A DNA stretch of 64,000 nt, from assembly GCF_900188335.1 (NCBI RefSeq), contig NZ_FZOY01000004.1, forward strand, positions 310,001 through 374,000. The letters are read 5' to 3'. This document shows positions 2,689 to 15,287 of the stretch, in pieces. Position 1 is the stretch's first letter. Every line of letters starts with the position of its first letter. A program made the translations under genes and the position numbers. The notes below the pieces were generated by a model that was not told the DNA's origin, made no database searches, and was given only the letters and a program-made list of their open reading frames with translations. The stretch is from Tropicimonas sediminicola. Lineage in GTDB: Bacteria > Pseudomonadota > Alphaproteobacteria > Rhodobacterales > Rhodobacteraceae.

Positions 2689-3453
2689 TCACCGCATGGC
2701 GCGGAGCCAGCCCAGAGTCGCACCGGTATCGCCGCCGGTCCGGTATTCGGCCCCGAGTGGCGCCGACCACCCGAGCGCCGCGATCCGCTCGAAGACGAAG
2801 GGATAGAACAATTCGCCATGGTCCGGCGCGCCGCGGTCGGGCACCGAGGCGAACTGGATATGCCCGACCAGCGGCAGAAGATCGGCCAGCCGGCCGGTCA
2901 CGTCGCCCTCCGTCCGCTGCACGTGGTAACAGTCGAACATAAGCATCAGGTTACCCGCGCCGACCTCCTCGATGATGGCGCGCGCCTGATCCGTGGTGGT
3001 CAGGAAGTAGCCCGGCGCGTCGTGCCGGTTGAGCGGTTCGATCAGCAGCGTGATCCCGTGGGCGGCGGCCTTTCCGCAGGCCTCTGTGAGGTTCGCCACG
3101 TAGGTCTCCCGCGCCTGCGGACCTTCGGCCACCCCGGCCATCGCGTGGATGCGCCGGGTGCCGATGGCATGGGCATAGGCAATCGCCTCGTCGATCGCCG
3201 CCTGCGCCTCCGTTTCGCGACCCGGCAGGGCAAGGAGCCCGTTATCGCCCGCCGCCACGTCGCCGCGCCGGGTGTTCAGCGAGAGCATCTCCAGCCCCGT
3301 CTCGCGCAGGGCCGAAACGATCTCCTCCGGCGGGGTGTCGAAGGGCCAATGGCATTCCACGGCGTCGAAACCCGCCGCATGAGCGGTGCGGATGGCATCG
3401 GGCAGCGGCCGGTCCGCCCAGAGGAACCCGAGATTGGCAGAGAATGTCGTCAT
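2689..3453 (-). CDS. hydroxypyruvate isomerase-like TIM-barrel enzyme
   Basis: A 254-residue protein matching the Hyi/OtnI branch of the xylose-isomerase-like TIM barrels. Visible motifs include MTTFSANLGFLW at the N-terminus, LIEPLNRHDAPGYFL in the middle and LMFDCYHVQRTEGD with GHIQFASVPDR near the end; the Glu, Asp, His and Glu residues in these blocks are the usual metal and catalytic ligands. The family interconverts hydroxypyruvate and tartronate semialdehyde, or related 3-oxo acids. The ATG at 3453 follows GAAGAGGCACGC. It begins 24 bases after the AMP-forming ligase and so could be the last gene of the cluster that starts with HMG-CoA reductase, but it may be an unrelated passenger. 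Family confidence is good; the exact substrate is uncertain. Confidence 0.82.
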   Translation of the reverse strand: MTTFSANLGFLWADRPLPDAIRTAHAAGFDAVECHWPFDTPPEEIVSALRETGLEMLSLNTRRGDVAAGDNGLLALPGRETEAQAAIDEAIAYAHAIGTRRIHAMAGVAEGPQARETYVANLTEACGKAAAHGITLLIEPLNRHDAPGYFLTTTDQARAIIEEVGAGNLMLMFDCYHVQRTEGDVTGRLADLLPLVGHIQFASVPDRGAPDHGELFYPFVFERIAALGWSAPLGAEYRTGGDTGATLGWLRAMR

Positions 3454-3477: not shown

Positions 3478-4899
3478 TCACTGTCCGGCCCCAAGCTGGC
3501 GGCGCAGGCGGGGCTCGTCGATCTTGGAGGCGTGGCGCCGGTCCATCGGCATCCGCCGGACCTCGACCACGCGGTCGATCCCGAGACGCCTTGCGGCCGC
3601 CTGCCAATGTGCCAGATGGCGGACGTCTCCTTCGATGGCCAGCACCGCCCCCTGCTCCATACGCACCAGCGCGGCCCGACGGACACCCGGCCAGAACCGC
3701 GCGGCCGTCTCGACCTGCAGCGGCATCGGCCCATCCTGCGCCCCCGGCTTCCAGCGCCCGAGCAGCCAGAGCCGGCCATGCACGTCGAGCCGCGCCGCAT
3801 CGCCGGTACGATGCCATATCCGTTCGCCCTCCCGGACCTTGTTGCCGGCGTCCTGCGCCGGGTCGATGTAGCCGCGGTTGACATGCGCCCCGGCGACCTG
3901 AACCTCGCCCTCGACCAGCCGCAGCTCGATCTCCGGCACCGGCAGACCGGCCAGCAGCCCGCCGCCGGCCTCCATCTCGGCCCAATCCTCGGCGGCGATC
4001 TCCGCTGTGCCGATCTCAGCGATCGGCTCAGCCTCGGTCGAGCCATAGACGGCCACAACCCGCAAGCCCGGACGCCCCTCCAGCAGGCGCCGGAGCGTGT
4101 CCGGAAAGACCGGCCCGCCGCCGGTGAAGATCGTCGTGACACCGGCCGGTACGCCAGCCTCGGCCAGCTTTTCGCAAATCGAGGGCGGCAGCAGCAGGCG
4201 GGTCGCGCCGCTCCGGGCGATCCATGCGCCGATCCGTCCTCTGTCGGCCCGGTCCTGCCGGGTGAGCTTCCAGTTCGGCAAGACCGAGCAGCGCCCAGCC
4301 GCGAGGTTCACCAGCACGAAGACCGGGAACCCCACGAGGTCGCGTTCCGGCCCACTGGCGGCGAGCAGCGGCGCAACGGCGGCATTCTGGGCCATCAGGA
4401 ACCCGTGGCTCCGCAGGATCCCCTTGGGCGCGCCGCTTGTGCCCGAGGTGAAGGAGATCAGCGCCGGGTCGTCGGGGTCGAGCATAACCGGCGGCACGTT
4501 GCCTGCCTCGTCGTCCCCCGGCCAGAGACCGGTCAGCCCCCAGAGCGCCGGCAGGGCGCGCAGAAGCCGATATGGCCCGCTCGCGGCGATGGCCGTGGGG
4601 CGGGTCGTCCGCACCGCGTGCAGCAGTCCGCGCAGCCCCATCGCCGGCTCCGGGAAAACGGCGACAAGCCCCGCCTTCCAGATCCCGGCCAGCGTCACGT
4701 AGAGCGCCGCCGAGACCGGAACGGCCACCAGCACCCGGTCCCCCTTGCCCAGCCCGCGCGCACGGATCTGCGCGGCAAAGGCGCTGGCCCGCCGGTCGAG
4801 TTCCCCGAAGCTGGTCAGCTCCCCCGAGGGATCGAGGATCGCCGGCGCATCGGGGCTCCGCGCGACCCTCTCCGCGAAGGCCTCAACGAGCGTCGTCAT
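3478..4899 (-). CDS. AMP-forming acyl-CoA/acyl-AMP ligase of unknown substrate
   Basis: A 473-residue member of the ANL superfamily. The ATP-binding loop SFTSGTSGAPKGI is at about 149-161, the YGSTEAEP adenine motif follows, then HRTGDAARLDVHGRLWLLGR at the hinge. The C-terminal lysine motif appears as RRHASKIDEPRLR. The protein is shorter than most acyl-CoA synthetases (500-550), with compact loops. It would activate a carboxylic acid as its adenylate, perhaps then as a thioester. The RRH-x-SK ending recalls OleC-type beta-lactone synthetases, but that is only a resemblance. The start ATG at 4899 lies 17 bases inside the preceding GNAT gene, so translation is coupled. No carrier protein is visible nearby. 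Confidence 0.82.
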   Translation of the reverse strand: MTTLVEAFAERVARSPDAPAILDPSGELTSFGELDRRASAFAAQIRARGLGKGDRVLVAVPVSAALYVTLAGIWKAGLVAVFPEPAMGLRGLLHAVRTTRPTAIAASGPYRLLRALPALWGLTGLWPGDDEAGNVPPVMLDPDDPALISFTSGTSGAPKGILRSHGFLMAQNAAVAPLLAASGPERDLVGFPVFVLVNLAAGRCSVLPNWKLTRQDRADRGRIGAWIARSGATRLLLPPSICEKLAEAGVPAGVTTIFTGGGPVFPDTLRRLLEGRPGLRVVAVYGSTEAEPIAEIGTAEIAAEDWAEMEAGGGLLAGLPVPEIELRLVEGEVQVAGAHVNRGYIDPAQDAGNKVREGERIWHRTGDAARLDVHGRLWLLGRWKPGAQDGPMPLQVETAARFWPGVRRAALVRMEQGAVLAIEGDVRHLAHWQAAARRLGIDRVVEVRRMPMDRRHASKIDEPRLRRQLGAGQ

Positions 4900-5731
4900 C
4901 GAGTACCTTGCCCATCAGCGCGTAGCGGCGGAACAGGCGGCCCCCGAGCTGTTCGCTGCGTTGGGCGGAAACGTTGGTTTCGTGGATCAGCGCGTGGATC
5001 GCATGGGTGAACCCCGCCTTGCGCGCCGCGTCGTGAAACACCGAGGCGAGCGCCTGTCCCGCACCGTGCCGGGTGCTGGCGTAGGTCTTGAGGATCACCG
5101 TGTCGGGGGATGGCCCGGAGCCGTAGTTCGGGATGCCGAACAGGAACCCCACCAGCGCGCCCTCGCCGTTCCGGGCAAACAGAACGAACTCGCGCCGCAG
5201 CATCGGGACGAAAGGAAGATACATGCCGAGGAAATCCTCGCGCGTGATCGGTGTGTAGAACGCGTTGCCGGCAAAGGCCGCAAGCGACAGATCATAGACC
5301 TGTCCGAAATGCGCCTCCGGGTCGGTTCCGTCCCATGTCTCGACGGTGATCTCCGGGTCGAACGGCGGCGGGTTGTCCATGCCGGCAAGCTCGACGCGGG
5401 CGGAGAAATACCGGGCGATCGGCGTGAAGCCGGCGGCGGTGAAGGCGGGCAGGTCCGCGGGGCCGGACTTGGGCTCCATCAGGAAGGGCGGCGAGCCGTC
5501 ACTTTCGGTCACGAGGCGATAGCTGTGCCAGGTATTGCCGTCCATCGGGCCGAGCAACCGCGCCGCTCCCCCGTCCCGGGCGGCAGTCTCGGCCTGCGCA
5601 AGCACCGCGCGGCCGGCCTCGGCGCTCTCACAGGTGAACTTGCCCACCGCCATCGTCGGTTTCCCGTCCCAGGAGGGCGCGTCGTGGAAGAGGGTGACGC
5701 GGGCGCCATCCGTGGCAAGGATTTCGGTCAT
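4883..5731 (-). CDS. GNAT-like acyltransferase in the HMG-CoA reductase cluster
   Basis: A 282-residue protein starting MTEILATDGARV. An N-terminal part with GPMDGNTWHSYRL is followed by a C-terminal GNAT-like fold with LVGFLFGIPNY and a helix bearing RHGAGQALASVFHD, where the acyl-CoA pyrophosphate loop is expected. It ends with VSAQRSEQLGGRLFRRYALMGK. The start ATG at 5731 overlaps the stop of the upstream kinase-like gene as ATGA, which decides the start; the much longer in-frame extension upstream is antisense-like noise. It overlaps the next gene, the AMP ligase, by 17 bases. A role in acylating an amine or hydroxyl made by the cluster is an inference from context. Confidence 0.75.
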   Translation of the reverse strand: MTEILATDGARVTLFHDAPSWDGKPTMAVGKFTCESAEAGRAVLAQAETAARDGGAARLLGPMDGNTWHSYRLVTESDGSPPFLMEPKSGPADLPAFTAAGFTPIARYFSARVELAGMDNPPPFDPEITVETWDGTDPEAHFGQVYDLSLAAFAGNAFYTPITREDFLGMYLPFVPMLRREFVLFARNGEGALVGFLFGIPNYGSGPSPDTVILKTYASTRHGAGQALASVFHDAARKAGFTHAIHALIHETNVSAQRSEQLGGRLFRRYALMGKVLDDDAR

Positions 5732-7053
5732 GACGAAACTCCGATCAGGGCGAAGGTGGCATAGGCCAGCGCCGGCAAGGCGACGCTCAGCCCGGCGAGA
5801 CGGGCCATGCGCTGGCGGCGGAAGGCTCCGGGCCAGCGCAGCGCGACCAACCCGCAGAGCGCCAGAGTGGCCAGAAGCAGGGGCCCGACATGGGGCGCCC
5901 AGTGCTTGGCGGGCAGGTTGGCCTGCATCAGCCAGAGCCAGAACGCCCAGAGTCCGGCCGCAAGCAACGCGAGCCCTCCGAGGCGCACCACAAGCGCTGC
6001 CCTCGCGAGCGCCAGCGCCGCCAGCGCGATGCAGAGCCCGGCCATGGTCGCACCGAAGAAGTCGAGCGCGTTGAGCCCCGTGGCATGGCCCGCCGCCAGC
6101 CAGCCGAAACTCAGCACCGCCAGCGCGGCAACGGCATCGAGCTCCGGGTGCCGGTCGGCGCTCGGCGCTCGGCGTTCGGCCAGAACGTGCAGCACCAGCA
6201 TGGCGAGCGGGAGCACCGTGTTCTGCATCGCGGTCACCGACAGCAGCAGGAAGATCGCCAGCAGATAGACCCGCGCCACGTGCCGGGACAGACCGAGCCG
6301 GTCCGCCAGCATGTGGAACAGCGCGAAGGCGCCGGCAAAGACGATGGCCAGCGCCAGCAGTTCGGAGGTCGGGCTCGCGCCATGCTCGCGCAGGATGATC
6401 AGCACCGCCAGCGGCAGAAACAGGTTGTCGAACCCCCGCCAGCTGTCGGCCTCGACCAGCGTGCCGAGGGTGGCGATAAGGAAGCCGAGGATCACCACGT
6501 TCTGCCGCGGGATCTCCGATAGCAGGAGCAGGCAGACCATCGAGAGGATCACGGTCACCATGAACAGGATCGCGCTGCCCTCGACGCTCTTGAGCCCGTC
6601 CTCCACGGTGAAATGCCGCCGGCCATAGGTGCTGCCCGCAAGCGCCGCAGCGGCATCTCCAAGTGTCAGGACGGCCAGCGGCAGCACGTAGAGCAGCGGG
6701 TCGCGCTGGCTGAGCAGCAGGACGAGCGCCACCGCGGCGGCGAGCAGGAAATCGCCGTAGGATTGCCGGTCCACCGAGTGGAGCGCGGCCGAGGCGCCGC
6801 TGCCGCGCAGGATCGGCGCGCGCATTGCGGCCATCACCAGGACGGTGAAGCCAAGGAGCATGTAGACCGGCCAATTCTCGGCAAACAGGAACGGCAGGCA
6901 GATGGCGAAGAGGCCCGTGGCCACGTGGACCAGCTTGCGCTGCACCTCGGCGCTCCAGCCGGCCGCCTCTGCCCGGCGCCGCACCAGCGTCATGAAGCCG
7001 AGCAGGCCAAGGATCGACGCGGCGGCGACAAGCAACGGGCCGAGGACCTGCAT
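5728..7053 (-). CDS. phytol/dolichol kinase-like integral membrane protein
   Basis: A 441-residue, almost wholly hydrophobic protein with about 12 or more membrane segments. The N-terminal half shows the CTP-dependent polyprenol-kinase/CDP-DAG-synthase signatures: EVQRKLVHVATGL near residue 38, GDAAAALAGSTYGRRHF around 132-148, KSVEGSAILFMV, and EADSWRGFDNLFLPL. These match VTE5-type phytol kinases and bacterial relatives. The C-terminal half is additional membrane sequence without a motif I can assign. Its ATG overlaps the stop of the DUF3419 gene by one base (TGATG), and its own stop overlaps the GNAT start by four bases. The likely reaction is CTP-dependent phosphorylation of an isoprenoid alcohol, or transfer of a cytidylyl group to a phospholipid. 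Confidence 0.78.
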   Translation of the reverse strand: MQVLGPLLVAAASILGLLGFMTLVRRRAEAAGWSAEVQRKLVHVATGLFAICLPFLFAENWPVYMLLGFTVLVMAAMRAPILRGSGASAALHSVDRQSYGDFLLAAAVALVLLLSQRDPLLYVLPLAVLTLGDAAAALAGSTYGRRHFTVEDGLKSVEGSAILFMVTVILSMVCLLLLSEIPRQNVVILGFLIATLGTLVEADSWRGFDNLFLPLAVLIILREHGASPTSELLALAIVFAGAFALFHMLADRLGLSRHVARVYLLAIFLLLSVTAMQNTVLPLAMLVLHVLAERRAPSADRHPELDAVAALAVLSFGWLAAGHATGLNALDFFGATMAGLCIALAALALARAALVVRLGGLALLAAGLWAFWLWLMQANLPAKHWAPHVGPLLLATLALCGLVALRWPGAFRRQRMARLAGLSVALPALAYATFALIGVSS

Positions 7054-8144
7054 CAGCGTATCTCCTCGATCACGAAATCGGAGTAGAAGAACGCCTTGTC
7101 CTGCGCCTTGAGCCGGTCTTCGAGCACCGTCAGGGTTGTCACCCTTTCGGCCAGCGAAGCCGGCACGCGGCGCGGGGCCATCATGTTCCAGTAGACCATC
7201 CGGCTGCCCGGCCTGCCGCGGTCCAGCACCTGCCGATAGGCCGCTTCCGCCGCCTCGGGGGACATGTACTCGAAGATGTCCGAGAGGTTGAACCCGTCCA
7301 CCGGCGGGCCAGCTGCGGCTTCGAGCGGGCCTTGCACCAGCTCCAGCCGGTCGAGCCGTTCGCGGATCACCTCGTAGGGGCCGGGCCGCCAGGGCATCGG
7401 GAGCGCCGCGCCGTGACCACCCTTGAGGATCCAGTGCAGGTACGGGTTCTCTGCCGGGTCGCAGGTCACCCCGGCATGGCGGATGCGGCGCGCGACATGG
7501 TCGGCGACCGATCCCTCGACATGGTCGAAGAACGCCTTGTCCCGCCCCATCCGCCCCATGACGAAGCGGGAGAAGAACAGCTCCAGCATCAGCCGCCAGC
7601 GCCAGGTGACGAAGCGCTCGTCGAGGAACCGCGCGCGCTCGGCCGTCGGGCGGGAGACGAAGGCGTCGTCGATGGTCCGGCGCGAATGGACGAGCGGCAG
7701 GATAAAGCGGCGGAAGATGCGGAAGTACCGCTCGAACCGCCCGACCCCACCCGCGCCATGGGCCAATACCTCCGGGCGCAGCGCCTGCCAGCGGGCGCGC
7801 GTCTCCTCCGGCAGGCCGGCGATGGCGCGGTCCAGCAGCGCGTCGCGCCGCTCGCTGGGGCGCGAGCCCATGAGCTCAAGGAACTCGGGCTGATCCAGCG
7901 CCCGCATCGCCCCGATCCGCAGCCGCAGGCAGTCGAGCTGCGCCGCCGAGAGATCGACCGCCGTGACGACCTCCGGGTCCAGCGTCAGCAACGCCAGCGC
8001 ATTGTCGCCCGCCGAGCAGATCGACAGGAAGCGCTGCCCGGCATCGGGGCGCATCGCGGCGACGAGCACATCGGCGTCTTCCCAGAGCTGGGCGTAACGG
8101 ATGATGTCGAACCGGGCGCGCTCGGCGATGTCATTGCGGGTCAT
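7053..8144 (-). CDS. DUF3419 family, BtaA-like SAM:3-amino-3-carboxypropyl transferase
   Basis: A 363-residue protein. The N-terminus reads RYAQLWEDADVL, then the nucleotide-binding loop FLSICSAGDNALALL at 39-53 and AVDLSAAQL with Asp64. This is the signature of BtaA/DUF3419, in which SAM donates its aminocarboxypropyl group, not its methyl, to diacylglycerol to begin betaine-lipid synthesis. Later blocks NPYLHWILKG, FNLSDIFEYM and VYWNMMAPRR also fit. No BtaB N-methyltransferase is nearby, so the product could stay as a primary amino acid or be acylated by the cluster's GNAT. The ATG at 8144 sits 14 bases inside the dikinase-like gene. Family assignment is good; the acceptor is unknown. Confidence 0.83.
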   Translation of the reverse strand: MTRNDIAERARFDIIRYAQLWEDADVLVAAMRPDAGQRFLSICSAGDNALALLTLDPEVVTAVDLSAAQLDCLRLRIGAMRALDQPEFLELMGSRPSERRDALLDRAIAGLPEETRARWQALRPEVLAHGAGGVGRFERYFRIFRRFILPLVHSRRTIDDAFVSRPTAERARFLDERFVTWRWRLMLELFFSRFVMGRMGRDKAFFDHVEGSVADHVARRIRHAGVTCDPAENPYLHWILKGGHGAALPMPWRPGPYEVIRERLDRLELVQGPLEAAAGPPVDGFNLSDIFEYMSPEAAEAAYRQVLDRGRPGSRMVYWNMMAPRRVPASLAERVTTLTVLEDRLKAQDKAFFYSDFVIEEIR

Positions 8145-10587
8145 GGGCCAGCCGCACCTCCCCAGTCTCGCCGTCGACGGAGAGCATCGCCCCGTCCGGC
8201 ACCCAGTCGGTCGCACCCTTGATCCCGACGACGCAGGGGATGCCGAGTTCCCGCGCCACGATGGCCGAATGCGACAGCAGCGAGCCGCGCTCGACGACGA
8301 TGGCCGCCGCGTTGGAAAAGACGGCGATCCAGCCCGGATCGGTGTTGCGCGCAACGAGTATCTCGCCGGCGGCCAGATGCTCGGTGCGCGGGTCGCGGAT
8401 CACCCGCGCCCGGGCGGTGACCTGACCCGCGGAACAGCCCGTGCCGGTGCGCAGCGTCCCGGTCTCGGGCTCCGCGGAGGCGACCGCACCGGTCTCCACC
8501 AGCAGCGCCGCACCGCGCCCCACCATCCGCTCCGGCGGGTCCAGCAGATGCTCGTGGCGGGCCTGCTCGGCCTTGCGCGCTGCGGCGATGGCTCGGATGT
8601 CCTGCGTCAGGCCGTTGCCCTCGATGGCACCGAGCACCTCCTCCACGGTGAGCAGGAAGATATCGCGCGGAGCATCGAGCCGGCCGGCGGCCCAGAACTC
8701 GCGCCCCATCGCGAGGAATACACGCCGGGCATGGCCGAAGATCCGGGTGCGTTCGAACCGCAGGTTCTCCCGGTCGCGCACCCGTGCCTTGGCATAGGCC
8801 GTGACCTGCCGAGCGATCCAACGCCTCACCGGGCTCTCCGGCATCAGCGCCCGCCAGTCGGGTTCGGCACGTTCCGGCGCGGCGCCCTCTGGCCGGCGGG
8901 CACTGGCGACGATGGCGGCGAGCAGCTGCGATGGATCCTCGTCGAGCGGGATCGATTCCAGCTTCAGCTCCTGCGTGCAGCGATCCCCGAAGCGGTCGAT
9001 ATAGGCATCGAACTCCGCCGCGATCTCCGACTGCGCCGCCAGCGCCTCGCGTCCGTCCCGGGCCAGCGGATCGGCAAGCCCCGCCTCGGCCACCATCCGC
9101 CCCATCCGCGCGATCCTCCGCGACGGCTCCGCCGAGACGATGTCGCCCTGCCCGATCATCACGTCGTTGTGCAGCGCCAGCCCCGCCGGACCGGCCCAGC
9201 GTTCCAGCAGCTTCCGCGAGCCGCCGAAGGCCATCATGCACAGGAAATCGTTGATGAGCGGCGCGTCCCAGCGGTCGAGCAGATCGGCCTCGATCGTCCG
9301 GTAGATGGCCGCGAGCTCGGTCAGGTTCGCCCGGTCAGGATGCGGTCCGGTGGCCAGCGCCTGTTCCAGCCGCGCCTCGAACCGCCGTTTCGTCGCCGGC
9401 AGCCGGAACGCCGCCCAGCCGAGCCCCGCCGCCACCCGCGCCGTCCGCGCGGACTCCGCGAGCCGCCGCAAGCCGGTCGCCGGCGGCGGCCCGATGGAGT
9501 CTCGCAGCTCGGCCGGCAGAGGCTCGTCCACGCCCATCATGGTCTCCATGTGGTCGCGGTTGCGGGAGAACCCGGGCAGCAGAGCCAGCGTGCGATACCA
9601 ATTGCCCAGGTTGTAATAGACCCGCCCCTCGACCCGGGAGAGCATGTTGTCGAAGACCGGCGCATTGGCCGCGATCAGCGACGGGCGCAGCCCCAGAAGC
9701 GCGACGAAAGCACGGTAGACCCGGCCGTAGACATGAACCGCGAAACTGTAGGTCAGCGGGCTGACGATGCCGGGGTAGCTCTCGACGATGTTGGAATTGT
9801 CGAGCACGACCATCGTGTCGTCCGGCATCGGAGCCGGGCGCAGCGGCGTGGTGATCGGACGCGACTGCAGCAGGAGCAGGCGCGTGCCGTCATAGGCCCA
9901 TTCGATGTCCTGCGGCAGGCCGAAGAAGGCCTCGGCGCGCGCGGCGAGGTCAGCGACCTCCTGCGCCTCGGAGGGGGTGAGAACCTGCGGGGCCTCCGGC
10001 GCGGCGACCACCGCGCCACCGGTGCCGACCTGCCAGTCCTCGCTGTCCGCCTCGCCGGAAACCAGCGCCTCGCCCAACCCCGCGATGGCCGAGATGGCGC
10101 GCCGGTCCCGCAGCCCGCTCACCGGGTCGGCGGAGAAGGCCACGCCGGCGGTGCGGGCGGGAACCATGCGCTGCACCACGATCGCCGGCGCCTCGGCCGC
10201 GGCGGCCCGCGTGGCCTGCCGGTAGCGCTCCAGCGTCTCCGAGGCGCCCGAGGCCCAGACCGCGCAGATCGCGTCCTCCACGCCCTCGGTCGGCACGTCG
10301 AGCGCGGTGTGGAATTGCCCGGCATGGCTGTGAGCGGTGCCGTCCTCGGCCCGGCCGGAGGAGCGCACCGCGTAGGGTCCGGGGCCGAGAGCGTCGAGCG
10401 CCGGACCGAGCGCAGCTTGCAGTTCCGGCGTGGCGATCACGCGCGCACCCTCCCGGCGGCAGGCCGCGGCGGAGACGACGAAGAAGGCCGGCACGTCGAA
10501 CCCCGCCTCCGCCAGCCTGTGCAGAGCCGCGCCCTTGCCGCCGGCCGTTTCGACGCTGATCTCTGCCGGTGTCAGGATCGGTCCCAT
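8131..10587 (-). CDS. PEP-synthase/rifampin-phosphotransferase-like dikinase without PEP domain
   Basis: An 818-residue protein. The N-terminal ATP-grasp domain (about 1-290) shows ETAGGKGAALHRLAEAGF, YAVRSSGRAEDG and VVQRMVPARTAGVAFSADP. A long middle domain carries FGDRCTQELKLESIPLDEDP. The C-terminal swivelling phosphohistidine domain has GSLLSHSAIVARELGIPCVV with the predicted phospho-acceptor His at about 773. The PEP/pyruvate-binding barrel that ends true PEP synthases is absent; this order is that of rifampin phosphotransferase and other antibiotic or small-molecule dikinases. It should split ATP to AMP and Pi and pass the beta phosphate to an unknown acceptor bound by the middle domain. 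Its ATG lies 3 bases after the UbiA stop. Given its neighbours, the acceptor may be an isoprenoid or polyol intermediate, which is inference. Confidence 0.8.
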   Translation of the reverse strand: MGPILTPAEISVETAGGKGAALHRLAEAGFDVPAFFVVSAAACRREGARVIATPELQAALGPALDALGPGPYAVRSSGRAEDGTAHSHAGQFHTALDVPTEGVEDAICAVWASGASETLERYRQATRAAAAEAPAIVVQRMVPARTAGVAFSADPVSGLRDRRAISAIAGLGEALVSGEADSEDWQVGTGGAVVAAPEAPQVLTPSEAQEVADLAARAEAFFGLPQDIEWAYDGTRLLLLQSRPITTPLRPAPMPDDTMVVLDNSNIVESYPGIVSPLTYSFAVHVYGRVYRAFVALLGLRPSLIAANAPVFDNMLSRVEGRVYYNLGNWYRTLALLPGFSRNRDHMETMMGVDEPLPAELRDSIGPPPATGLRRLAESARTARVAAGLGWAAFRLPATKRRFEARLEQALATGPHPDRANLTELAAIYRTIEADLLDRWDAPLINDFLCMMAFGGSRKLLERWAGPAGLALHNDVMIGQGDIVSAEPSRRIARMGRMVAEAGLADPLARDGREALAAQSEIAAEFDAYIDRFGDRCTQELKLESIPLDEDPSQLLAAIVASARRPEGAAPERAEPDWRALMPESPVRRWIARQVTAYAKARVRDRENLRFERTRIFGHARRVFLAMGREFWAAGRLDAPRDIFLLTVEEVLGAIEGNGLTQDIRAIAAARKAEQARHEHLLDPPERMVGRGAALLVETGAVASAEPETGTLRTGTGCSAGQVTARARVIRDPRTEHLAAGEILVARNTDPGWIAVFSNAAAIVVERGSLLSHSAIVARELGIPCVVGIKGATDWVPDGAMLSVDGETGEVRLAHDPQ

Positions 10588-10590
10588 GGG

Positions 10591-11505
10591 TCAGATCCCC
10601 GCGACCAGGGGCAGGAATCCGGCGGCGAGGTAGCAGACCAGCAGCCAGAGGCCCGACATCTTGTCCACCCGCCCCTGCCAGGCCGGGCTCGGGTCGGCAC
10701 GGAACCGCCATGCGCAGAGGGCGACCAGCAGCAGCCCGATCCCGCCAACCGCCGAGATCACCCCGACCGCCCCCAGCGCCTGCCCGAGGCCGACGAGCAG
10801 GAGATAGGCCACCGCGGCCGTCGCCAGCCAGACAGCCGCCGCGCGACGCGGCCCCCAGAGCGCGGAATAGGTATCCACCCCCTCGCGCTCGCTCTCAGGC
10901 GCCCAGACCTTGCGTCCGATCTCCAGCACGCAGCCATTGGCGAAGCTGAGCGCGAGGAACCAGCCGAGCGCGGGTGCTGGCGCGGCGCCGGCTGCGGTCC
11001 ACTCGATGCCGGTCAACATCAGGTCGATCAGCGGCATGATCACCATGTGGCTGAGCAGGTAGACCAGCGGCCGCGCCTTGAGCCAGGCGGGTGCGCCGAA
11101 TTCAGCTGTCATCAGCGCGAGCCAGAGCCAGACCAGCAGGAGCAGACCCCGCGTGGCCGGGTTCCAGGCCCAGGCCAGCGCCAGCATCCCCGCGCCCACC
11201 AGCGCGGCCAAGCCGAGGATCGTGCGCAGGCTCACCAGCCCGCGCGGGATCGGCCGCTCGGGGCGATAGCGCCGGTCGTCCTCAAGGTCCTTCGCCTCGT
11301 CGAAGGCCCGCATCTGGAAGAAGATTCCGAGCGCCAGCAGCGCCGCGACGACATAGGCCCAGATCCCGGGCAGCGGACGCCCCGCCAGAAACGCCGAGAC
11401 ATTGACGCTGGCGGCGGCGAAGACTGTCAGCAACGGCACTGTCTGTACCAGCGGGAAGCGCTCTGCCTGGTAGGTCCAGAGGCGGCGGGGAAGGCTTTGG
11501 GTCAT
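10591..11505 (-). CDS. UbiA superfamily prenyltransferase with variant aspartate motif
   Basis: A 304-residue membrane protein with about nine hydrophobic helices. The first prenyl-diphosphate motif reads DEAKDLEDD at 69-77 where UbiA enzymes usually have NDxxDxxxD, and the second aspartate-rich loop appears as GRKVWAPESEREGVDTYSALWG near 198-219. Such enzymes transfer a prenyl chain from prenyl diphosphate to an aromatic ring, sugar alcohol or glycerol phosphate. The start overlaps the HMG-CoA reductase stop as ATGA, so both are translated together. It could act in quinone, tocopherol-like or ether-lipid-like chemistry; the sequence does not decide. Confidence 0.84.
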   Translation of the reverse strand: MTQSLPRRLWTYQAERFPLVQTVPLLTVFAAASVNVSAFLAGRPLPGIWAYVVAALLALGIFFQMRAFDEAKDLEDDRRYRPERPIPRGLVSLRTILGLAALVGAGMLALAWAWNPATRGLLLLVWLWLALMTAEFGAPAWLKARPLVYLLSHMVIMPLIDLMLTGIEWTAAGAAPAPALGWFLALSFANGCVLEIGRKVWAPESEREGVDTYSALWGPRRAAAVWLATAAVAYLLLVGLGQALGAVGVISAVGGIGLLLVALCAWRFRADPSPAWQGRVDKMSGLWLLVCYLAAGFLPLVAGI

Positions 11506-12773
11506 CGTTTGCGCGCCAGCTTGTCATGGGCGGAGGCGAAATGCCCGGCGGCCATGGCGGCCACGATGGAGATCTCGCCACACAGACAGAGCGCCGCCGT
11601 GACCTCTGCCAGCGCGGCGGCACTCCCCGGCCCCTCGAGCCCGACGAGGTTCAGCGCGGCGCGCTGGCTCGGCAGGCGGGTGCCGCCGCCGACGGTGCCC
11701 ACGAGAATGTTGGGCATGGTCACGGAGCAGAAGATCCCGCCCTCGCGCCGCTCCATCCGGGTGAAGCCGACCGCGCTTTCCGCCACGCAGGCAGCGTCCT
11801 GACCGGTGGCGATGTAGAAGGCGGCGAGCGCGTTGGCGTAATGCGCCTGCGCCCCGAACTGGCCGGAGAGCAGCGCGCCGAGGCCGGCGACGCGGCCGTA
11901 ATCGAGCATGGCATCGATGTCTGTCCGCAACACGCTGCGCACCACCTCCGGCGGCAGGATGACCGAGGCGCTGACCTTGCGGCCACGGCCGGTGATCGTG
12001 CCCAGCGAGGTCGCTTTCTTGTCGCCGGAGAAATTGCCCTCGACATACCAGCGCAGCGGCTTCGTCGGGCATTCGGCCACGGCGGCCTTGCCGAGCGCCT
12101 CGGTGGCGATCGTCACCATGTTCTGCCCTGCCGCCTCGCCGGTCGTGTAGCGGCAGAGCAGGAAGACGACGTTGTTGTCGATCACCGGCTCCAACGAGAC
12201 CAGCTTGCCGTGAGACGTCGTCGCCTCGGCGGCGGCCTTGAGGCGTTCGACATGGCTGACCGCCCATTCGACGAAGCGTCCGGCGTCGAGCAGGCTCTCG
12301 AAGACGAAGGCCGGGGTCCGCAGCACGCCCTCGTAGAGCACCGCGGTGCTGATCCCGCCGGCCCGCGTCGCCGCCCAGGCGCCGCGCGCGTAGGAAGCCA
12401 CAAGCGCGGCCTCGGTGGTGGCGAGCGGCAGGTGGAAATCCCCGTCTGCATGCAGCCCCCGCACGCGCAACGGACCGACGACGCCCACCGGCAGCTTCAC
12501 CGTGCCGATCATGTTCTCGATATTGGTGGAGTAGCATTCGGCGGTGGCGAGCGTCTCAGGGTCGGCGAGCACCGCCTCGCTCTCGGACGGGGCGTGCCCC
12601 TGCCCGCGCAGCGCCTCCCACAGCCCCCTGATCGACTCCGCCGAGGCCGATTGCGCCCCGCGGAAGCGGGAGAGCGCGGCGTCGCTGGGAAGCATGCGTT
12701 CCTCGCGGCCCTGCCGGAAGTACAGCTCGCGCACCCGCTGGAGCATCTCGAGCACATGGTTCGGAACGATCAA
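11502..12773 (-). CDS. class I hydroxymethylglutaryl-CoA reductase
   Basis: A 423-residue soluble protein, the size of bacterial and archaeal class I enzymes without a membrane anchor. HMG-CoA reductase reduces HMG-CoA to mevalonate using NADPH. Landmarks are ENMIGTVKLPVGVVGPL (85-102), PLATTEAALVAS with the catalytic Glu at 121, EAAGQNMVT (213-221, the DAMGMNM equivalent), SGDKKATSLG with Lys252, TGQDAACV with Asp326, and AAGHFASAHDKL with His416. All four catalytic residues of class I enzymes are present. The start is TTG at 12773 behind a GGGGGG stretch; an ATG at 12746 is the alternative. It is the first gene of the run down to 3478. No HMG-CoA synthase or mevalonate kinase is in the window. 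Confidence 0.92.
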   Translation of the reverse strand: MIVPNHVLEMLQRVRELYFRQGREERMLPSDAALSRFRGAQSASAESIRGLWEALRGQGHAPSESEAVLADPETLATAECYSTNIENMIGTVKLPVGVVGPLRVRGLHADGDFHLPLATTEAALVASYARGAWAATRAGGISTAVLYEGVLRTPAFVFESLLDAGRFVEWAVSHVERLKAAAEATTSHGKLVSLEPVIDNNVVFLLCRYTTGEAAGQNMVTIATEALGKAAVAECPTKPLRWYVEGNFSGDKKATSLGTITGRGRKVSASVILPPEVVRSVLRTDIDAMLDYGRVAGLGALLSGQFGAQAHYANALAAFYIATGQDAACVAESAVGFTRMERREGGIFCSVTMPNILVGTVGGGTRLPSQRAALNLVGLEGPGSAAALAEVTAALCLCGEISIVAAMAAGHFASAHDKLARKR

Positions 12774-13003: not shown

Positions 13004-13744
13004 TCAGATGTAGGCGGAGAGCCCGCGCCAGCCCGCGAGCAGGGCGGAGAGCCCCATGACGGCGATGGCAAGCTGCCGGTACTGGGTGTTGTCGAGTCGG
13101 CTGAAGGCCTCGGTACCCAGCCAGGTGCCGAGCGCCAGCGCGGGGATCGAGACGAAGCTCAACCAGAGCGTGTGGCTGTTCACGGCCCCCGCAACGAACA
13201 GGCCGGGCGTGGCCATCAGCGCCGCGATGAAAAAGAAGAACAGCAGCGAGGCACGGGTCTGGACCGAGTTGATGCCGGAGCCGAGGTAATAGGCCACGGC
13301 CGGCGGGCCGGGGATCGCTGCGAGCCCCGAGAACGCGCCGGAGGCGACGCCGGCCGCCAGGGCGAGGCCGTTGTGGGCCCGCTGCTCCGTCGGCTTGTAG
13401 CGCAGGATCATCACCAGCCCGACCAGAATGGCGGTCGCGATCAGGATCCGTGCCGCATCGGGGCTGAGCGCGGTCAGCGCGAGGATCCCCACGGGTGTCC
13501 CCAGCAACGAGCCGAGCGACAGCCGAACCAGCGAGGGCCGGTGAATGTCGGCGTGCAGGACGAAAACATCGCGCAGCCCCACCACCACCTGCAACAGCAC
13601 ACCGATCGCCACCGCCTCGACCGGCGGCAGGACGAGCGAGACGATCGGCACGGCCGCAAGCGCGAAGCCGAAGCCTGCCATGCCGCGCAGGAAGGCCGAA
13701 AAAAAGACGGCGCAGATCACGAGGAGGGTTGTAGTGGAGAGCAT
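13004..13744 (-). CDS. TauE/SafE (TSUP) family sulfite/organosulfonate exporter
   Basis: A 246-residue membrane protein with about eight hydrophobic segments. It begins MLSTTTLLVICAVFFSAFLRG and carries GMAGFGFALAAVPIVSLVLPP and, in the second repeat, ASGAFSGLAAIPGPPAVAYYLG, the paired glycine/proline-rich motifs of the TSUP (formerly DUF81) family. Members export sulfite, sulfoacetate or related anions. The ATG at 13744 was chosen over a hydrophilic upstream extension. It lies 40 bases after the MocR-type regulator on the same strand and next to taurine catabolism genes. A role in exporting sulfite released from taurine is likely, but no xsc gene is nearby to confirm it. Confidence 0.83.
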   Translation of the reverse strand: MLSTTTLLVICAVFFSAFLRGMAGFGFALAAVPIVSLVLPPVEAVAIGVLLQVVVGLRDVFVLHADIHRPSLVRLSLGSLLGTPVGILALTALSPDAARILIATAILVGLVMILRYKPTEQRAHNGLALAAGVASGAFSGLAAIPGPPAVAYYLGSGINSVQTRASLLFFFFIAALMATPGLFVAGAVNSHTLWLSFVSIPALALGTWLGTEAFSRLDNTQYRQLAIAVMGLSALLAGWRGLSAYI

Positions 13745-13784
13745 CTTGGGTGTCGTCCCGGGCGAGTTTGGTGTCCCCGCCCGC

Positions 13785-15287
13785 CTATCCGCTGCGCTGC
13801 AGCAAGGATTGGGCCAGTTCTGCGTTTTCGATGGGGCCAGGGCCCGCGGCGGCAAGCTCGGCCGCGAGTTCCCCCAGCTTGCGCATCCCCGGAACGATGG
13901 CCTCCGTCTGGATCAGGGACAGCCCGAGCCTCAGATATCGCCCCGCCTGCTCGGGCGGCACAAAGGGGTCGCCGCTCTCGAACAGAACGCCCGCCTCGAG
14001 CGCAACCCGGTTCAGAACGCGGGCATCCACGCCCTCTGGACATTCCAGCCACACGCTGGCGCCGCCGTTGCAGGGATCCGGGGTCCGAAAGCCGGGGAGC
14101 AGCTCCGGCAGATGCTCGATCACCCGGTACCAACGGTCCGCGTGGGCCGCGCGGAGCTTGCGGATCAGCGCCAGGAAATGCCCCTCGGCCAGGAAGATCG
14201 CCGCCGTGCGCTGGTTGTTGAGCGGCACGGAGCGGTGGACCAGCCGGCGCAGCCAGCGCGCCTCGGTCACCAGCGGCTCCGGCGCGATCATGAAGCCCAA
14301 CCGCACGCCGGGCGCCAGCACCTTGGAAAGCGTCCCGAGATAGATCACCCGCCCGTCGCGGTCGCGCGACTTGAGCGACGGCTCGCCGGAGAAGGAAACC
14401 AGCCCCTCGTGGTCGTCCTCCACGATCAGGAAATCGTCCTGCGCGGCGCGGGCCAGGATCTCGTCGCGGCGTCCGCCGGGCATGACGGTCATGGTCGGGC
14501 ATTGCGCCCCCGGCGTCAGGATCGCCAGGTCGAGGTTGGAGCCCGGCGAAATTCGCGCGCCCCGCTCGTCCACCGGCAACGGCACGGATTCCGCGCCGGT
14601 CAGCTCGAAGATGAAGCGCGAATCTGGATAGCCGGGCATCTCGCAGCCAACCCGCCGGCCGGGGCCGGCCAGCAACTGGGCGAGGAGGTAGAACCCCTCC
14701 TGCGCGCCGAGGGTGATCAGGATCTCCTCGGGCCGGGCATATATCCCGCATTCGGGCAGGATCCGCGAGCGGATCTGCTCGATCAGCATGGGGTCGTCGT
14801 CCACCGCCCTGTCCGCCGACCACCAGTCCAGCGCCGCCCGTCCCAACGTATCGCGCGAGGATTCGCGCCAGGCGTTCAGCGGAAAGAGCTGGCGGTCCAC
14901 CTGGCCGAAGATGAAGGGATAGGGGTAGTCGTGCCAGTTCTGCGGCTTGCGGATGTGGTTGAGCCGCGACGGGTGCACCGCCATCCGCGCGTCCCAGTCC
15001 ACCACCGACTTCAATCCCGCAGGCCTCTCCGCCGCGCGGCCGCGCGCCGCCACGAAACAGCCGCGCCGGGGGAGCGACTCCAGATAGCCGCGTGCGATCA
15101 GTTCATCATAGACTGCGGTCGCGGTGTTGCGCGCGATCCCGAGTTTCTCGGCCAGGGCGCGGGAGGAGAGGATCTTCTGCCCCGGCTGAAGCGTGCCCTC
15201 GTGAATCGCCGCGATGAGCCCGCGCCGAAGCTGCCGCTGAAGCGGCTCCGAACTGCTTCGGTCGACTGAAACGGGCACGCTCTGCAT
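13785..15287 (-). CDS. tauR: MocR-type (GntR-aminotransferase) regulator, probable taurine regulator TauR
   Basis: About 500 residues. A GntR winged-helix domain (LQRQLRRGLIAAIHEGTLQPG, then LAEKLGIARNTATAVYDEL) is followed by a fold-type I aminotransferase-like domain with ITLGAQEGFYLLAQLL, IVEDDHEGL and YLGTLSKVLAPGVRLGF, whose lysine binds PLP. The MocR family uses PLP as effector-sensing cofactor; TauR of Rhodobacter is the founding taurine example. It is divergent from taurine-pyruvate aminotransferase with a short shared control region, which supports the name. The start is uncertain: ATG 15287 gives normal length, ATG 15398 would add 37 unusual residues. I could not find a convincing TauR repeat by eye. 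Confidence 0.85.
   Translation of the reverse strand: MQSVPVSVDRSSSEPLQRQLRRGLIAAIHEGTLQPGQKILSSRALAEKLGIARNTATAVYDELIARGYLESLPRRGCFVAARGRAAERPAGLKSVVDWDARMAVHPSRLNHIRKPQNWHDYPYPFIFGQVDRQLFPLNAWRESSRDTLGRAALDWWSADRAVDDDPMLIEQIRSRILPECGIYARPEEILITLGAQEGFYLLAQLLAGPGRRVGCEMPGYPDSRFIFELTGAESVPLPVDERGARISPGSNLDLAILTPGAQCPTMTVMPGGRRDEILARAAQDDFLIVEDDHEGLVSFSGEPSLKSRDRDGRVIYLGTLSKVLAPGVRLGFMIAPEPLVTEARWLRRLVHRSVPLNNQRTAAIFLAEGHFLALIRKLRAAHADRWYRVIEHLPELLPGFRTPDPCNGGASVWLECPEGVDARVLNRVALEAGVLFESGDPFVPPEQAGRYLRLGLSLIQTEAIVPGMRKLGELAAELAAAGPGPIENAELAQSLLQRSG

Follow-up and report, generated by a model that had tools for sequence, protein, structure and literature searches.

The stretch under study, 64,000 nucleotides of Tropicimonas sediminicola DNA (contig NZ_FZOY01000004.1, positions 310,001 to 374,000; hereafter the window), carries seven open genes on its minus strand between positions 3478 and 12773, transcribed from 12773 towards 3478. 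The leading gene (gene 1, 11502-12773; TTG start, 423 residues; PF00368, 348.6 bits) encodes a protein that resembles 3-hydroxy-3-methylglutaryl-CoA (HMG-CoA) reductase (HMGR) and is probably an alcohol-forming fatty acyl-CoA reductase. It is followed by genes for a divergent membrane transferase of the UbiA superfamily (gene 2, 10591-11505; PF01040, 52.8 bits), a phosphotransferase resembling pyruvate phosphate dikinase (PPDK) and phosphoenolpyruvate (PEP) synthase (gene 3, 8131-10587; PF01326, PPDK_N, and PF00391, PEP-utilizers), a divergent DUF3419 protein that is a paralogue of BtaA (gene 4, 7053-8144; 363 residues; PF11899, 169.8 bits against a cut-off of 28.2), a membrane protein without a known family and with about 13 transmembrane-like segments (gene 5, 5728-7053), a tandem GNAT acyltransferase by predicted fold (gene 6, 4883-5731), and an AMP-forming acyl ligase that is fatty-acid-CoA-ligase or OleC-like (gene 7, 3478-4899; PF00501, 141.9 bits). 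In the order of transcription the junctions measure -4, +3, -14, -1, -4 and -17 bases, each an overlap or a 3-base gap, in agreement with a first-pass annotation of this DNA, which had described seven coupled genes on one strand with gaps of at most 3 bases. The family names given there were borne out by Pfam for the HMG-CoA_red, UbiA, PPDK-like, DUF3419 and AMP-binding proteins and by fold for the GNAT; the exception was the phytol/dolichol kinase proposed for gene 5, a name drawn from motif resemblance, which no search confirmed. Genes 5 and 6 of the window had no Pfam match at E <= 0.001, and no NCBIfam family reached its cut-off for any of the seven proteins (for the PPDK-like protein among the best 25 of 26 matches, for the ligase among the best 25 of 82).

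Conservation was assessed in two samples. Among 244 genomes drawn from the order, PF00368 matched in 40 (39 over the cut-off). All but two of these 40 places, namely the window itself and a fragment in genome G135, were taken together with their flanks, which gave 38 loci. All seven genes were present in the same order at 14 of the 38 HMGR loci, giving 15 cluster genomes with the window; 83 of the 84 junctions at the 14 loci, measured from start codons that a script picked close to where the window protein would place them, lay within -17 to +5 bases, the remaining one measuring 211. Gene 5 was found in exactly the same 15 genomes as the reductase cluster, and so was the cluster-type DUF3419 protein (at least 646 bits on the cluster profile, the remaining matches reaching at most 80.2 bits); for the genes tested, the cluster is all or none. 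The second sample came from a scan with a GNAT profile, one genome per species, from which the best 80 of 149 matching stretches were taken. The same seven genes in the same order were seen at 68 of these 80 loci; in L155, from an alphaproteobacterial metagenome-assembled genome (MAG), all seven are present but rearranged, and 11 loci start at the end of a contig, so that the cluster is incomplete there, one of them (L156) also having no ligase match after the GNAT. Residue, distance-matrix and flanking-family counts given below are based on 69 loci of this sample. Since 10 of the 14 other cluster genomes of the first sample have a reductase stretch identical to a locus of the second, the two sets share members, and the 15-genome and 69-locus counts should not be taken as independent.

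Over the 69 loci, the seven proteins gave pairwise-distance matrices that correlated with one another (r 0.71-0.90); in 200 permutations of the HMGR-DUF3419 pair, the only pair permuted, the correlation was at most 0.30. The gene coupling and conserved order are far beyond chance, and the seven proteins co-evolve as a co-occurring unit. The first-pass annotation had proposed one coupled biosynthetic cluster, and had named an unconserved gene order and a lack of correlated occurrence as what would count against it; the order kept at 14 of 38 and at 68 of 80 loci and the shared 15 of 244 genomes uphold its proposal.

By record title, the hosts of the 80 loci are mostly Rhodobacterales, the others being Bosea, Devosia, Dongia, Anderseniella, a Rhizobiaceae MAG, a Sphingomonadales MAG and a gammaproteobacterial (Granulosicoccaceae) MAG. 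One copy of the cluster is plasmid-borne, in Roseinatronobacter sp. S2; in searches of plasmids, the GNAT and UbiA profiles each matched one plasmid only, and the DUF3419 profile matched that plasmid and six distant sequences. Apart from the window's own genome, five weak matches to the GNAT profile turned up among 385 genomes of the class, and the UbiA profile, at E <= 1e-8, matched the own genome only among 398 sampled genomes of the phylum; outside the Rhodobacterales-dominated set the cluster looks rare. The shuffled copy in L155 (280-3068) lies beside an integrase-core fragment and genes of ABC transporters, a setting that suggests it was transferred. At the 24 of 38 HMGR loci without the cluster, three carry a class I HMGR with a match to HMG-CoA synthase and matches to mevalonate kinase close by (one over the cut-off, two a few bits below it), 20 match the cluster reductase profile weakly (20-34 bits, no DKK motif aligned) and are for that reason probably class II, and one has no match to the profile.

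The nearest solved structure to the gene 1 protein is that of an HMGR (6hr7), and its catalytic residues E86, K252, D326 and H416 (human E559, K691, D767 and H866) are kept in all 15 cluster genomes and at 68 of the 69 loci, L139 having a gap at E559. Equivalents of R590, D690, K691, K692 and N755 are kept as well. In plant and human HMGR, the HMG moiety of statins is contacted by R590, S684, D690, K691, K692 and N755, and its terminal carboxylate forms a salt bridge with Lys735 (PMC9500038). At the positions of human S684, K735 and L862 the cluster protein has E245, A296 and F412; this Glu/Ala/Phe triplet is present in 15 of 15 cluster genomes and at 68 of 69 loci, the exception being Asp/Gly/Phe in L155, and the Phe is invariant (15/15 and 69/69). 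The same three positions set apart FcrA, a class-I-HMGR homologue that Grossi and colleagues describe as reducing fatty acyl-CoA and not HMG-CoA: Ser684 is replaced by Glu, the carboxylate-binding Lys by a generally small residue, and Leu862 by a residue that is "bulky" in all FcrA and is Trp in the N. pharaonis enzyme (PMC11948995). FcrA works with NADPH on long-chain acyl-CoA and is insensitive to statins. According to the same report, a FadD ligase accompanies FcrA, the two forming a wax-ester precursor module in haloarchaea, and bacterial class I HMGR had been noted in genomes without a mevalonate pathway (Gophna 2006, cited in PMC11948995). The cluster reductase carries the FcrA signature, and is probably an alcohol-forming fatty acyl-CoA reductase and not an HMG-CoA reductase.

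Mevalonate-linked enzymes, in contrast, kept Ser, Lys and Leu at the three positions. This was the case for three HMGRs of the same bacterial family that lie beside mevalonate-pathway matches and for a Streptomyces HMGR whose operon is annotated as a mevalonate operon, and also for a fifth control, an unannotated Streptomyces copy. The first-pass description of the cluster as led by an HMG-CoA reductase is not supported. In a tree of 27 sequences, which has several long branches and was built without the sequences of the FcrA paper, the cluster form made up a single clade (100/99), next to which the Vibrionaceae homologues were placed (98/98), the mevalonate-linked HMGRs standing apart (100/100).

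Several homologues outside the cluster differ in their pocket residues. The four from Vibrionaceae (L169, L170, L174 and L177), 51-55% identical to the window protein, have Asp at S684, Thr or Asn at K735 and Phe at L862, and are perhaps FcrA-like rather than mevalonate enzymes; in Vibrio fluvialis (L170), the one annotated Vibrionaceae locus, the gene stands alone. A homologue on a plasmid of Streptomyces sp. NBC_01435 (L175, 6001-7053) has Glu/Thr/Phe, unlike the mevalonate-operon HMGR on another Streptomyces plasmid, and one on the Alteromonas macleodii plasmid pBGP9 (L171, 6878-8044), downstream of AMP-binding, iron-containing redox and short-chain dehydrogenase/reductase genes, has Ala/Ser/Trp. 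On the Sinorhizobium medicae plasmid pMl1, a divergent homologue (L172, 5857-7101) with Lys at R590 and Arg at K692 has genes for acyl-CoA carboxylase subunits and an indolepyruvate ferredoxin oxidoreductase as neighbours, and perhaps represents another substrate class.

The first-pass annotation had called gene 4 a BtaA-like aminocarboxypropyl transferase. The DUF3419 domain stands, and the protein is, from its family, a probable 3-amino-3-carboxypropyl transferase using S-adenosylmethionine (SAM); it is nonetheless distinct from the BtaA of betaine-lipid synthesis. BtaA is paired with the N-methyltransferase BtaB in the synthesis of the betaine lipids diacylglyceryl-homoserine (DGHS) and diacylglyceryl-trimethylhomoserine (DGTS). 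Low-scoring DUF3419 matches other than the cluster copies occur in 13 of the 244 genomes, two of which (G174 and G237) additionally hold a cluster copy. Four of these other loci were taken and three scanned, and in all three the gene for a DUF3419 protein (340-357 bits) precedes one for a methyltransferase, as BtaA precedes BtaB. The window protein is 24-29% identical to these three BtaA-type proteins and, at 363 residues, shorter than two of them (407 and 416); a YAQ.WED motif is common to both groups, and a Pfam scan of the operon proteins found no methyltransferase. The gap in profile scores, the low identity and the lack of a methyltransferase in the operon rule out a betaine-lipid BtaA.

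The gene 2 protein has 8 transmembrane-like segments and exceeds the cut-off of PF01040. UbiA domains have two Asp-rich motifs, and known members of the superfamily use allylic diphosphates; in the alignment of the cluster proteins the first motif reads D-E-x-K-D-x-x-x-D, and the second, E..RK.W..(E)...GV..YS, holds few Asp residues. The PPDK-like protein combines an N-terminal ATP-grasp domain with a C-terminal swivelling His domain, in which H773, within LLSHSAIV.RE, is invariant in 10 of 10 aligned sequences (10 of the 15 copies were used). Its best solved matches, 5fbs and 5hv1, are labelled phosphoenolpyruvate synthase, and we take them to be rifampin phosphotransferase (RPH). Because its gene is bound to the operon, the enzyme probably acts on an intermediate of the pathway.

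The predicted structure of the gene 5 protein (mean predicted local distance difference test, pLDDT, 82.6) had no match in the PDB at E <= 0.001. Its conserved motifs occur in the order RK..H, DAAAAL.G..YG, KS.EG and DN.FLP, an order that presumably resembles that of CTP-dependent lipid kinases. When the gene 5 profile was compared with a CTP_transf_1 protein of the same genome, the CdsA-like signature was aligned at a non-significant score (P 0.27), and a PF01148 search of that genome found one other gene only, and not gene 5. Neither family nor fold searches, which included no direct comparison with a known kinase, matched gene 5 to a dolichol or phytol kinase. The gene 6 protein (pLDDT 89.9) consists, in the predicted structure, of two GNAT-fold halves; tandem GNATs head its Foldseek list, where the PDB matches include 7q3a, mycothiol synthase and the clavulanic-acid tandem GNAT (2wpw). 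The Acetyltransf_1 model is reached at E <= 1 by 3 of 15 members of the family. For the ligase, the best NCBIfam match (best 25 of 82) was PRK09274, "fatty acid CoA ligase family", at 251 bits against a cut-off of 478; its SFTSG and RTGD motifs and the C-terminal K459 are invariant in 10 of 10 aligned sequences, again from 10 of the 15 copies.

Genes for a sulfotransferase and a cytochrome P450 adjoin the operon at 18 of the 80 loci (among them L089, L090, L091, L107, L126 and L136), a count that is a lower bound because 11 loci are cut at the upstream end. The pair lies divergently upstream at 17 loci and, in Cypionkella (L126), immediately downstream in the orientation of the operon; its presence on either side of the operon points to a functional link. 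At six more of the 80 loci a P450 lies near the operon without a sulfotransferase. The sulfotransferases are 59-71% identical to the query copy from L107 and the P450s 22-31% identical to that from L101; Pfam confirmed the P450 in 10 of 10 scanned (of 24) and the sulfotransferase (PF13469) in 2 of 2 scanned (of 18). The 14 other cluster loci of the 244-genome sample, partly from the same genomes as the 80-locus set, include two with the pair and three more with a P450. Neither gene lies beside the operon in the window. Part of the family probably hydroxylates and sulfates its product.

No flanking family was found at more than 25 of the 69 loci, and no exporter or regulator fixed beside the operon was recognised there, the flanking families being partly identified. 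In 64 non-redundant upstream regions the best 8-mer occurred in 10, compared with 6-7 in shuffles, which is not a convincing shared motif, and the Pho box consensus did no better than in shuffles. Two neighbours in the window were considered as further parts of the operon and rejected. One is a TIM-barrel gene (2689-3453), hydroxypyruvate/2-oxo-tetronate isomerase-like and below NCBIfam cut-offs, which starts 24 bases 3' of the ligase gene and has one weak match in the 80-locus set (L079, 30% identity, 4.4 kb away); the other is a TauE-like gene (13004-13855) without a match in that set.

That the cluster is lipid-related, as had been supposed, is probable. We favour, with rather more confidence than doubt, the view that the seven genes make up one pathway leading from a fatty acid through a fatty alcohol to an amino-acid-headed, N-acylated membrane lipid or similar amphiphile. 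Judging by its family, the AMP ligase would supply an acyl thioester, which the FcrA-type reductase, given its signature, would reduce with NADPH to a long-chain alcohol. The gene 5 protein and the PPDK-like enzyme could then activate or phosphorylate this alcohol or its acceptor, and the UbiA-like transferase may join the pieces, plausibly through an ether bond, which is the weakest step of the scheme. The DUF3419 enzyme, again by family, would transfer the 3-amino-3-carboxypropyl group of SAM to a hydroxyl, creating a homoserine-type head whose amine the tandem GNAT might acylate; in part of the family, the associated P450 and sulfotransferase would hydroxylate and sulfate the product. A more specific version is doubtful: that an N-acylated alkyl-ether of homoserine, or a homoserine ether of an alkyl polyol, constitutes a new class of bacterial lipid, made by way of FcrA, a new DUF3419 transferase, the tandem GNAT and a UbiA-type alkyl transferase acting on phosphate-activated fatty alcohols instead of prenyl diphosphates, and hydroxylated and sulfated in some strains.

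A number of observations weigh against this pathway or the reading of its reductase. We know of no precedent for a UbiA step on a saturated alkyl chain, gene 5 belongs to no family of note in Pfam or NCBIfam, and the role given to the PPDK-like enzyme, like the product itself for every copy, is one that we infer. The best solved matches to the ligase are adenylation domains of nonribosomal peptide synthetases, which leaves room for a substrate other than a fatty acid. The pocket of the reductase is read from sequence alone, and its Phe at the L862 position differs from the Trp of the N. pharaonis enzyme. The carboxylate-binding Lys, here equated with Lys735, is printed as 795 in the text of PMC11948995. 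One control, L072, shows Asn at Lys735 in the coarser alignment and Lys in another, and the five controls with Ser, Lys and Leu have residues other than Glu in the E559 column, which we attribute to their matches beginning near that position. Finally, HMG-CoA lyase exceeded its cut-off in 14 of the 15 cluster genomes, so that HMG-CoA from leucine breakdown may exist in them.

Two alternatives would retain HMG-CoA as the substrate. In the first, put forward in the first-pass annotation, gene 1 encodes a genuine HMG-CoA reductase whose mevalonate enters a new isoprenoid-lipid pathway. This would agree with Pfam and with the public annotation of homologues, with the UbiA-type enzyme in the operon and with the retained equivalents of R590, D690, K691, K692 and N755. 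The annotation had itself noted that other mevalonate genes were missing, and this holds beyond the window: none of the 15 cluster genomes has HMG-CoA synthase or a mevalonate kinase over the cut-off, so none has a complete mevalonate route, and all 15 have DXR; in the own genome, two sub-cut-off mevalonate-kinase places are galactokinases and a third GHMP kinase is IspE. The carboxylate-binding Lys and Ser, moreover, have been lost and a Glu gained, unlike in the mevalonate-linked HMGRs of the same bacterial family. We rejected the isoprenoid reading on the strength of DXR, the two missing enzymes, the Glu/Ala/Phe pocket and the Ser/Lys/Leu controls, and consider it very improbable. Fungal siderophore side chains offer a model for a different use of HMG-CoA, in which mevalonyl-CoA is transferred to an amine. 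Here the reductase would draw on leucine-derived HMG-CoA, mevalonate would serve as a building block, and the ligase and GNAT, both present in the operon, would form mevalonyl-CoA and pass it to an amine; the lyase implies that HMG-CoA occurs, and the same five residues are kept. Glu in place of S684, however, may repel the HMG carboxylate and Ala in place of K735 cannot form the salt bridge, and these replacements are shared with FcrA, for which HMG-CoA is not a substrate (PMC11948995); a mevalonyl product is in our view improbable, if a little less so than an isoprenoid one.

The other two alternatives concern the fate of the product. A patchy distribution (15 of 244 genomes), a plasmid copy and an accessory P450 and sulfotransferase are typical of secondary metabolism and would suit a small diffusible amphiphile (a signal, or a metallophore-like or antibiotic-like compound) instead of a structural lipid. 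Such a product is unlikely, the flanks having no widely shared family, no exporter or regulator recognised as fixed among the families identified and no convincing upstream motif, and the two polytopic membrane proteins, UbiA-like and gene 5, being suited to a membrane-held product. Wax esters or another neutral storage lipid, as with FcrA in haloarchaea, might be expected from FcrA and a ligase, the published wax-ester precursor module (PMC11948995). The operon, to which this search was confined, has no wax-ester synthase, however, and a wax-ester route offers no role for the DUF3419, GNAT, PPDK-like and UbiA-like genes; we regard this outcome as scarcely to be expected.

The annotation of HMG-CoA reductase in bacteria that use the methylerythritol phosphate (MEP) route has been a puzzle. 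For the present gene, residues and operon together indicate a fatty-alcohol pathway and its further enzymes. If the proposed membrane-lipid pathway is true, it opens a concrete way towards a hitherto uncharacterised lipid made by marine bacteria (Ruegeria, Roseovarius, Sulfitobacter, Loktanella), of which relatives both with and naturally without the cluster exist, and extends the DUF3419, UbiA and PPDK-like phosphotransferase families to new substrates. Among the matches listed in searches of open-licence literature, there was no recognisable description of this operon, and in the main text of PMC11948995, supplements apart, no match to alphaproteobacteria, Rhodobacter or Roseo was found, the sole "operon" being a cloning construct. 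As far as these searches reach, the pathway is undescribed, as had been proposed, with a fatty-alcohol lipid pathway replacing the isoprenoid interpretation.

Each of the better understood relatives shares part of the system. With BtaA the cluster protein has in common the DUF3419 domain, the YAQ.WED and VD.S motifs and, plausibly, SAM aminocarboxypropyl chemistry; it differs from the BtaA/BtaB system in that G174 and G237 carry a second DUF3419 gene with a methyltransferase besides the cluster copy. The PPDK-like protein resembles RPH and PEP synthase in its ATP-grasp and swivelling His domains and in part of the middle region as well, but falls below the cut-offs of the best 25 of 26 NCBIfam matches and is bound to an operon. 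FcrA is the closest counterpart of the reductase, sharing the class-I HMGR relationship, the catalytic Glu, Lys, Asp and His, the three pocket changes, a ligase partner and genomes without a mevalonate pathway (PMC11948995); the cluster enzyme, of 423 residues, differs in having no long N-terminal extension and in its seven-gene operon. In class I HMGRs of the mevalonate pathway, by contrast, Ser684 and Lys735 hold the HMG carboxylate (PMC9500038), where the cluster form has Glu and Ala. Finally, in the ether-lipid routes of myxobacterial ElbD and AGPS (cited in PMC11948995), fatty alcohol from an acyl-CoA reductase likewise feeds ether lipids and a ligase forms part of the system, whereas the present operon has UbiA-like, DUF3419 and GNAT genes in place of a PlsC-like or AGPS gene.

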